Assembly (NCBI GenBank): GCA_946405515.1
Contig: CAMJHM010000011.1
Location: 1-48,870, forward strand
DNA: 48,870 nucleotides
DNA from: an uncultured Fibrobacter sp.
Lineage (GTDB): Bacteria; Fibrobacterota; Fibrobacteria; Fibrobacterales; Fibrobacteraceae
Direction: 5' to 3'
The notes beneath the pieces are model-generated. The model worked only from the letters and a program-made list of their open reading frames with translations, had not been told where the DNA came from and did not search any database. Shown here one piece after another: positions 31,277 to 34,082 of the stretch. The number at the start of each line of letters is the position of its first letter. The first letter of the stretch is position 1. Position numbers and translations under genes: made by a program.

Positions 31277-32791
31277 CTACCTAAACTCAAGACTGTCCAG
31301 AGAAAGGACCGTGAAGGGTTTCAGCGCATCAAATTTCGCCACTGGGCCGACAATGGAAATCGTCATCTTGTCGCGGCTGAAATACTTGGCAATCATCGCC
31401 TTCACCTGTTCGGCGGTCACCGCATTGATTTCCTTCACGTATTCCAAGTAATGGTCGTAGGTCTTGCCCAGGAGTTCGCCCTTCGCAAAGATGACAGCCG
31501 TCGCTTCTGGAGAATCAAACAAACTCGGCAGGCTCTCGACCAAGGACTTTTTCGCCTGGGCAAGTTCTTCGGCGGTCGGGCCATCCTTCGCCAATTTTTC
31601 CACTTCTTCGAATACGAGCTTGATGGCGAAATCAACCGACTCCACCTTGGTCTGCAAAGCAATCGTCGTGAGCGCCGTGTCGCGGTACTCGTTGCCGACT
31701 GCACTATAGACGCTATAGGCCAGGCCTTCGTCGCTGCGCACACGGTTCATCAAGCGGCTCGAGAAACTCCCTCCGCCAAGGATAAAGCTTGCGACGGCAG
31801 CAGGATAGTAATCGGGATGGGGCCTACGCACAAACGGCTGGTTCATCACGATGTTCGCCTGGGTAATGTCGCGGTCCACCACGAACACACCTGGCTTGCG
31901 CAAGAACTCAAGCGGTTTCGGTGGAGCCTTCACAGCAACCGGAGCCGTCGGGAGGTCGGCGAAAAATTCCTTGAGCATAGTCACCGCAGAATCGCGGTCC
32001 ACATCGCCCGACAGCGCAAAGATGATGCGGCGTGACGAGAACAGTCCCTTCGAAAGGCGCTTCACGTCGGCGACAGAGACCTTGGAGTATTCCTGTGCGT
32101 TTGCGTCCCAGAGCCTGGGCGAAGGAGCGTAGTTCACCTTCATCTGCAACGCCTGCAAGACCTTCCCCGGAGTATCGTAACGGCGATCGTAACTGGTCAC
32201 GAAGTTCGCCTTCACGATTTCGAGTTGATCCTTGTCGAAAGCAGGTTCCTTCACAATCTTCTTCACCAGAGCGAGCATCGCAGGGAAATCCTTCGAAAGG
32301 CAGTCGATATCGAACGACGACGTAAATGTTCCCGTCGAAGTAGAAATGCCCGCACTCACAAATTCAAGAGAATCATCCAGCGCATGAGCCGGAAGCCCTA
32401 CGGCACCGCCACGGCGGAACATGGCACCGACCATAGAACTCGCGGCCTCGTCCTTGAGAGCGAGGGATTCGTGCGGTTCATCGAAGAACACGGTAAAATT
32501 CACAAGCGGGAGTGTCCGGTCCGACACGACGTAACCCGTAATGCTATCGGACAGCTGCACCCTGAAATCCTTCGGGTACGGAGCGACATAGCGGAACTCG
32601 GGGAAAGCGATATCCTTGTAGCTAGCCGGTACAGCGGAAGCGGCAGGAGTTGCAGGAGCAGGCGCCACAGCGGAATCCTGTGCAGCAACACGCGGGGTCA
32701 CCTCCCCAGCCGATGTCTCGGGAGCCGGAGCCCCGGAACACGCAACCAGGGCCAGTGCGGTAATGGCAGAAAACGATACAAACTTACGCAT
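31277..32791 (-). CDS. M16-family peptidase-like lipoprotein lacking the zinc-binding motif
   Basis: 504 aa from the ATG at 32791 (ten residues inside the longest frame), giving a lipobox LALVAC (Cys18) and an Ala/Pro-rich linker. Two M16 halves follow: LVNFTVFFDEPHES...GAMFRRGG and, in the C-terminal half, VRSDEGLAYSVYS, the Arg/Tyr substrate-binding region. The catalytic HxxEH motif is missing: the expected helix reads DEAASSMVGAMFRRG. It therefore looks like the non-catalytic partner of a two-subunit M16 peptidase; a zinc-binding partner is not in the window. Predicted periplasmic or outer-membrane lipoprotein. Confidence 0.86.
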   Translation of the reverse strand: MRKFVSFSAITALALVACSGAPAPETSAGEVTPRVAAQDSAVAPAPATPAASAVPASYKDIAFPEFRYVAPYPKDFRVQLSDSITGYVVSDRTLPLVNFTVFFDEPHESLALKDEAASSMVGAMFRRGGAVGLPAHALDDSLEFVSAGISTSTGTFTSSFDIDCLSKDFPAMLALVKKIVKEPAFDKDQLEIVKANFVTSYDRRYDTPGKVLQALQMKVNYAPSPRLWDANAQEYSKVSVADVKRLSKGLFSSRRIIFALSGDVDRDSAVTMLKEFFADLPTAPVAVKAPPKPLEFLRKPGVFVVDRDITQANIVMNQPFVRRPHPDYYPAAVASFILGGGSFSSRLMNRVRSDEGLAYSVYSAVGNEYRDTALTTIALQTKVESVDFAIKLVFEEVEKLAKDGPTAEELAQAKKSLVESLPSLFDSPEATAVIFAKGELLGKTYDHYLEYVKEINAVTAEQVKAMIAKYFSRDKMTISIVGPVAKFDALKPFTVLSLDSLEFR

Positions 32792-32866
32792 TTGACTAGA
32801 AAATAGCAAATGAACAGGCAACAGAAACTATACAATCCAAATTGGAGTATCGATTTGACATTTTTA

Positions 32867-32896
32867 TCGACCACCCCTCAAAAAACAACATATATT
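32867..32896 (+). promoter_or_regulatory. Candidate promoter of the small RNA
   Basis: TCGACC at 32867-32872 (4 of 6 to consensus) and TATATT at 32891-32896 are 18 nt apart. The predicted start near 32902-32904 falls right before the first stem of the folded region at 32906. A TTGACA at 32855-32860 is too far (30 nt) to pair with this -10. Confidence 0.4.
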
Positions 32897-32902
32897 CATT
32901 AA

Positions 32903-33038
32903 TGAGCCTTCCTGGTGGATACATCATCGGTTGCCGAGTTCGCTCGGGCCGCCCGACTCTCAAGAGTCAAACCCACCCGGGAGGCTTTTATCTATCTTCC
33001 CAAGGAGCCCAGTGCCCGCCAGCACTGGGTCTTCTTTT
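32903..33038 (+). ncRNA. Candidate structured small RNA of unknown family
   Basis: About 136 nt, not a coding region. Stem P1 pairs 32906-32918 with 32973-32985 (12 of 13 pairs, including one G-U). Inside it are P2 (CGG and CCGAG at 32928-32938 with CTCGG and CCG at 32943-32951, UUCG loop) and P3 (GACUC at 32955-32959 with GAGUC at 32964-32968, UCAA loop), forming a three-way junction. P1 is followed by TTTTATCTATCTT and then by a perfect 8-bp terminator hairpin. The T-tracts define the plus strand. It is divergent from the M16-like gene and convergent with batB. It does not match features I know for 6S, SRP, tmRNA or RNase P RNA. Confidence 0.55.
33008..33038 (+). terminator. Rho-independent terminator of the small RNA
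   Basis: CCCAGTGC (33008-33015) and GCACTGGG (33022-33029) form a perfect 8-bp stem with a 6-nt loop, followed by TCTTCTTTT. No plus-strand gene precedes it, which supports an RNA gene upstream. Confidence 0.75.
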
Positions 33039-33053
33039 ATTCCTTCGGTCAAA

Positions 33054-34082
33054 TTAGCTGAAGCGGCCAACAAGCTGGCGGCGACGGCGACCACGTTCGG
33101 AAACAAGCGCCTCGACAAGGAACAAGAGCGCCGCAAGGCCCAGGAATATCTGGTAGCGGTCCTGGTAGTTTTCCAGGCGATCCGTTGCCTGCTCCTTTTT
33201 CTCGAGCGATGCGATTTCCGTCAGCACCTTCTGCAACTGGAACTCGCTCGGATTCGCATAGAAATACAGGCCACCCGTCACGTTGGCAATTTCTTGCAAG
33301 GTCCCTTCTTCGAGGCGCGTGGTGACAATATTGCCCTGCACATCCTTCTTGTAGGCGACCTCGCCGCTCTTGGTCTTTACCGGTATGGGCACGCCTTCGC
33401 GGGAGCCTATACCCACCGTATAAATCCTGATACCGAGTTCGGCAGCTTCCTTCGCCGCGTTCACGGCTTCGGCTTCGAGTTCTTCGCCGTCGCTCATCAA
33501 AATCATCACGGAATACTTCCCAGCGCCGCCGGAATTCTTGAACAGTTGCATGCCCTTGCGAATAGCCGATTCCAAGTTCGTACCCGGCATCAGCCACCCC
33601 GGATTCAGTTCTTGCAACATCATCTGCACGGTACCGTAATCAAGCGTGAGCGGCACCATCACCTGAGCCTCGCCACTGAACGCAACTAGGCCCACGCGGT
33701 CGCCCGAAAGCGATTCCAGGAACGCGGCAATTTCATGGCGCGAACGCACAAGACGGTTCGGCTTGATATCCTCCGCCAACATGGAAAGGGAAATGTCCTG
33801 CAAAAGCACGAGGTCGAGGCCACGACGCTCGATATGTTCCATCTTATGCCCCCACTGCGGGCGGGCAAGCGCAACGAACAGGAACGCAAGCGCAAGCAAA
33901 AGCAACAGAATCTTGGTCAGGCGCCGCCACGGGGACACCGAGGTAGAAAGTTTAGGGAGCATGGAGAGCGAGACAAAGCGCGCGGCAAGTTTCTTGCGAC
34001 GGTGATACGCGTAGACGAACAGCAAGGCAAACAGCGGCAATGTAAACAAGCACCACAGAAAATCAGGTTCGGCAAATCGCAT
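33054..34082 (-). CDS. batB: VWA-domain membrane protein, BatB-like
   Basis: 342 aa. Two N-terminal membrane helices (DFLWCLFTLPLFALLFVYAY; LLLLLALAFLFVALARP) precede a von Willebrand A domain at about 88-290 with an intact MIDAS: D96-x-S-x-S (QDISLSM), then T in PLTLDYG and a D in LMSDGEE. A C-terminal helix (FLGLAALLFLVEALV) closes the protein. This is the BatA/BatB architecture of Bacteroides aerotolerance-type operons, which are thought to act in the cell envelope or in stress. A BatA-like partner lies at 35558-36652, unusually separated by an opposite-strand gene. A ribosome site GGAGA lies just upstream of the ATG. Confidence 0.88.
   Translation of the reverse strand: MRFAEPDFLWCLFTLPLFALLFVYAYHRRKKLAARFVSLSMLPKLSTSVSPWRRLTKILLLLLALAFLFVALARPQWGHKMEHIERRGLDLVLLQDISLSMLAEDIKPNRLVRSRHEIAAFLESLSGDRVGLVAFSGEAQVMVPLTLDYGTVQMMLQELNPGWLMPGTNLESAIRKGMQLFKNSGGAGKYSVMILMSDGEELEAEAVNAAKEAAELGIRIYTVGIGSREGVPIPVKTKSGEVAYKKDVQGNIVTTRLEEGTLQEIANVTGGLYFYANPSEFQLQKVLTEIASLEKKEQATDRLENYQDRYQIFLGLAALLFLVEALVSERGRRRRQLVGRFS

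Follow-up and report, generated by a model that had tools for sequence, protein, structure and literature searches.

A predicted small RNA between two minus-strand genes

The whole stretch of DNA analysed here (the window) comprises 48,870 nucleotides from an uncultured Fibrobacter sp. On its minus strand lie a gene for an M16 peptidase-like protein (31277–32821; its ATG start is likely at about 32790) and a BatA/VWA-domain gene (33054–34082). Between them, and read from the plus strand, is a predicted small RNA (32904–33038; about 135 nt), to which the M16 gene is divergent and the VWA gene convergent. The predicted start of this RNA is near 32902–32904 and its predicted end near 33038–33042. 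A first-pass annotation of the locus had stated that no plus-strand gene uses the terminator found here, and indeed the only overlapping plus-strand open reading frames are TTG-start frames of 71 and 252 amino acids, the latter antisense to the VWA gene. No tRNA or tmRNA was found in the region.

The minimum free energy of 32903–33038 is −62.4 kcal/mol, compared with −40.8 ± 3.7 kcal/mol for shuffled sequences (z −5.8, 0/200). The predicted fold of 32904–32987 is a three-way junction formed by a closing stem, P1, and two hairpins, P2 and P3, all of which are supported by both the fold and covariation. P1 pairs the 5' strand GAGCCUUCCUGGUGG (32904–32918) with the 3' strand CCACCCGGGAGGCUU (32973–32987). 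The first-pass annotation had the non-coding stretch begin exactly at a 13-bp closing stem; the stem starts at 32904 and consists of 14 pairs, 9 + 5 bp flanking a single U·C mismatch. The two hairpins with UUCG and UCAA loops described in that annotation are both recovered in the predicted fold. P2 (32928–32951, UUCG loop) is the part most variable in length and sequence among relatives, and its stem covaries. P3 (32955–32968) has the form GACUC-UCAA-GAGUC, with covariation that includes changes from U-A to A-U and from G-C to A-U. The junction bases 3' of GGUGG are invariant. A pyrimidine-rich single-stranded linker of 14 nt, UUAUCUAUCUUCCC (32988–33001), follows P1 and reads CUAUCCUCC or AAUCCCUCC in relatives. 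The intrinsic terminator that had been noted next is also present as described, with a hairpin at 33002–33036 and a T-rich tail that extends the element to 33042. Nearly every pair of P1, P3 and the terminator has a probability close to 1, but the basal part of P2 reaches only about 0.3.

Conserved promoter, palindrome and terminator

The TATATT promoter proposed earlier for this RNA stands up well. The −10 box lies at 32891–32896 and a −35-like hexamer, TCGACC (family consensus TTGTCC), at 32867–32872, 18 bp upstream on the same strand, and both are conserved in relatives. Further upstream is a palindrome that the first-pass annotation had not noted, ATCCAAATTGGAGTA (32835–32849; consensus TTCCAAnTTGGAnTA), a putative activator-binding site as judged from its conserved distance and its occurrence before other genes. 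The centre of this palindrome, whose general form is TTCCAAnTTGGA, precedes the first stem base by 63 nt in the window and by 62–65 nt in nearly all scored homologues, and in 50 of 53 homologues 7 nt lie between the end of TATATT and the stem. In 24 diverged upstream regions the only conserved elements are the palindrome, TTGTCC 18 bp from the −10 box, the −10 box itself and short A/T tracts; the palindrome and the two boxes keep a fixed spacing while the intervening DNA has diverged. In subtype B the right half of the palindrome is degenerate. One homologue (L129) was missed by the palindrome search expression, although TTGGAATA is present at the expected place. In CRP-type promoters, class I activation classically goes with a dimer site near −61.5 and a poor −35 box, an arrangement like the one seen here.

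The 3' end takes two main forms among the 53 homologues. Six or more T directly after P1, with no separate terminator, are found in 25; another 25 have a broken T-run together with a separate hairpin and its T-run; and in 3 the tail of the separate hairpin is weaker, related genomes among these not being independent. A strong T-run after P1 and a separate terminator hairpin are mutually exclusive in this set, and the window is of the hairpin type. Since the T-run and the hairpin replace each other, RNAs of the window type should be made as one product of about 135 nt. This speaks against the "two exit signals" and the additional 85-nt product of the first-pass annotation, at least for the subtype in the window. 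The T-rich run TTTTATCT after the closing stem is probably not a second exit signal, and the TTTTAT that follows P1 looks like the remnant of a T-run. At loci that do have the T-run (e.g. L096, L100, L112 and L118), GTAYCC is conserved directly after it, beyond the expected end of the transcript and in sequence that is otherwise no longer conserved.

Distribution and covariation in Fibrobacter

Covariance models find the fold in 63–64 of about 80 Fibrobacter genomes, at essentially one locus each; the count is given as a range as the weakest matches in the genus (subtype B, 28–35 bits) rest also on the pattern, the promoter and synteny. There was no convincing covariance-model match in 87 other genomes of the phylum. 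DNA similarity alone detects close copies and, in further genomes, the conserved start. A search pattern for the two strands of P1 occurs once per genome in 37 genomes, every one of them of the same genus, and its reversed control gave 0 matches. When 84,980 species were scanned by pattern, 23 Fibrobacter-labelled records were found together with 4 isolated matches elsewhere (in Hymenobacter, an actinomycete, Elusimicrobia and Acidovorax), which we take as chance. Additional rows from the covariance models are either the opposite strand of the same loci, matched because the stems are nearly symmetrical, or weak matches taken as chance. Among the latter is a match in G143:C94 (L139), which lies inside gene-like sequence without promoter elements; a better match in G143 is found elsewhere. 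The covariance models gave no match in 16 genomes of the genus, and nothing was found at the flank of the VWA gene, checked in 12 of them; loss, divergence or incompleteness may account for these cases. G009, G011, G023, G024, G034, G035, G115 and G124–G128 are among the genomes without a match.

In types A, A', B and D the RNA lies between the M16 and VWA genes or adjoins M16. In one genome (L129, G031:C110:22594-22688), unlike all others seen, it is directly upstream of M16 on the same strand. In type C, the palindrome, the promoter and the RNA are intact downstream of bioB, with varied genes after them. That the type C unit is found at a different locus indicates an autonomous gene rather than a leader. 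In its conservation the RNA thus behaves as an sRNA gene is expected to, with its own promoter and its own terminator independent of the neighbours.

The first-pass annotation had named covariation in relatives as a check of the fold. Covariation was analysed in a model-based alignment, since the subtypes differ in length and a MAFFT alignment does not recover P2 and P3. In 31 distinct sequences of types A, A', C and D, 95.2% of cells are paired. Changes on both sides of a pair occur in 9 of 27 pairs and in 28 cells, compared with 3.9 pairs and 6.0 ± 2 cells after shuffling, and pairing falls to 33–47% when the partners are slid; the alignment had been fitted to the model, and covariation counts are inflated by relatedness among the sequences, but shuffles and slides are nonetheless far lower. 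Compensatory changes are therefore present well above the shuffled level. Type B follows the same structural plan and adds a C-G to U-A exchange in P2. Sequence conservation is 0.92 in P1 and 0.96 in P3, against 0.66 at unpaired positions.

A search for the palindrome followed at N40–56 by TATATT gave matches in 49 of 80 genomes of the genus, and 1 match for the reversed control. The overall lengths from palindrome to TATATT fall into two groups, 58–64 and 68–74 nt, in a search whose window ended at 74 nt and which counted orthologues more than once. The genes downstream encode a sugar porter (PF00083), a FIST-GGDEF protein, other GGDEF/EAL-like proteins, a response regulator, a pseudopilin-like protein and DUF2147, some of these names being assigned from sequence by eye. 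In G005, G029, G002, G021 and other genomes of the genus (L172–L191), a small candidate regulon (sugar porter, FIST-GGDEF, GGDEF/EAL, pseudopilin-like and DUF2147 genes) is delineated by TTCCAAnTTGGAATA ahead of TATATT.

Comparison with known RNAs

The first-pass annotation had recognised none of the known small RNAs here and had pointed to Rfam as a check. Rfam 15 indeed gave no family at the gathering score, and a relaxed scan only three matches at chance level (E 0.67–9.2). The 6S RNA models (RF00013 and RF01685) did not match the region even at E 10, and neither of them gave a credible match in the genomes of the genus. A sub-threshold 6S match of 39.8 bits was seen in another family of the class (L031, G040:C53:361-539). 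SRP RNA (RF00169) was rejected, as the SRP RNA of the genome is located at G000:C9:48462-48558. Hfq was detected in 0 of 80 genomes of the genus, and an Hfq-dependent sRNA was rejected on this ground. A Y RNA was likewise rejected: its ends, like those of the Fibrobacter RNA, are paired in a closing stem, but no TROVE/Ro partner protein was found over the cut-off in the same 80 genomes.

Three features recall 6S and 6S-Flavo RNA, namely a closing stem that pairs the ends, a large junction and a small hairpin on the 3' side, and these RNAs also occur as one copy per genome. The Fibrobacter RNA differs in having no model score, a much shorter length than RF00013 (187 positions), a strong P3 and a specific operator. 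The streptococcal csRNAs, which are cia-dependent, offer a likeness of mode, a relation in sequence having been sought through Rfam only. They too are short and free-standing, with promoters of a dedicated regulon, and the single strand beside their terminator is able to base-pair with Shine-Dalgarno sequences; the unpaired region between their stem-loops is complementary to these sequences (PMC3091779). The csRNAs, however, are multi-copy and mostly simple stem-loops with an anti-start-codon sequence, whereas the Fibrobacter RNA is a single-copy three-way junction with a different operator.

Small RNAs are not mentioned in the F. succinogenes genome paper or in one transcriptome paper (open literature, main texts), Fibrobacter appears in a 2010 survey of structured RNAs only among the references, and the open literature searched contained no described Fibrobacter small RNA. 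The RNA represents a new family within a known kind of small RNA, and no catalogued family matches it.

Discussion

Here we have described a predicted RNA at 32904–33038 that we are highly confident is the product of a conserved autonomous gene of the genus Fibrobacter. The covarying structure, the conserved promoter and terminator and the lack of an Rfam match strongly support the central proposal of the first-pass annotation, a new small RNA with a three-way junction; its second exit and 85-nt product find no support for this subtype. As a whole, the locus is best explained by an activator-controlled, Hfq-independent, trans-acting sRNA expressed from a free-standing conserved gene, a reading to which we give a probability of about one half. 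The 16 genomes of the genus that gave no match count against it. A regulator binding to the palindrome, about 62 bp upstream of the start in a class I position, would probably switch the promoter on. We infer that the sigma-70-type promoter TCGACC-18-TATATT then makes a single RNA of about 135 nt, which would fold into the three-way junction and end at the separate intrinsic terminator. The junction could provide a scaffold that is stable or bound by protein, and the linker or the P2 loop may pair in trans, without Hfq, with purine-rich Shine-Dalgarno regions of mRNAs.

This pairing step is tentative, and we consider it somewhat less likely than not. CCUCC is the core of the anti-Shine-Dalgarno sequence, and it is unpaired in the P2 loop of type B, L107 and L129 and in the linker of types B and D. 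The linker in the window has UCUUCCC in its place. CCUCC is absent from many T-run subtypes, and T-run subtypes mostly have no exposed copy; this speaks against Shine-Dalgarno pairing. A base-pairing seed usually makes unpaired positions more conserved than helices; the reverse is found here, which fits a protein-bound scaffold and speaks against a pairing seed.

A regulatory sRNA acting on mRNAs is most likely in our view, and its serious rival is an RNA that works by binding a protein, either by sequestering RNA polymerase as 6S RNA does or as a sponge for another RNA-binding protein. P1, the large junction and P3 would then form the binding surface, and the single strands would not matter. 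Such an RNA would account for the higher conservation of paired sequence, the invariant junction bases after GGUGG and the single copy per genome, and for a genus in which 6S RNA is undetectable with either model. Nevertheless, the lack of any 6S match at E 10, the far shorter length and the short P2 argue against a 6S-like RNA, and an operator common to sugar-transport and GGDEF genes suggests a specific rather than a global role. On balance we regard protein binding as rather unlikely. That the RNA is a global protein-binding substitute for 6S, with a compact three-way junction regulating RNA polymerase or some other hub protein, is quite improbable; if true, a 6S replacement would stand in a genus with neither 6S nor Hfq detectable. 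It is also improbable that the RNA is a diverged member of a known family missed by the Rfam models. Housekeeping RNAs do diverge, and 6S-Flavo was itself an overlooked 6S RNA (PMC2864571), but the genome carries its SRP RNA at another place and the region has neither an Rfam match nor a 6S-like score.

The surroundings of the RNA bear on two further explanations. Its position directly upstream of M16 on the same strand in L129 would suit a cis-acting leader or attenuator of a neighbouring gene. In most genomes, however, the VWA gene downstream is convergent and M16 divergent, type C lies at another locus and every copy ends in its own terminator; gene orientation and the second locus mostly refute a leader, and we reject it as very improbable. 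A location between divergent and convergent genes could also point to a repeat or a bidirectional terminator rather than an RNA gene, yet the single copy, the conserved promoter geometry, the branched covarying structure and the presence of the RNA together with its promoter at another locus make this scarcely credible.

Returning to the activator-controlled sRNA, a conserved RNA under regulation offers a concrete entry to gene regulation in Fibrobacter, where Hfq is not detectable. These are gut and rumen bacteria and leading cellulose degraders of the rumen. The palindrome TTCCAAnTTGGA also names a candidate regulon common to the RNA, sugar-transport genes and GGDEF (probable c-di-GMP) genes. 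Since palindrome and TATATT also precede sugar-porter and GGDEF genes, the RNA probably belongs to a regulon with them. In type C only (e.g. L035, L036 and L098), there is another inverted repeat, ACCACTTT-n-AAAGTGGT, directly before the −10 box and overlapping it, which is possibly a repressor site.
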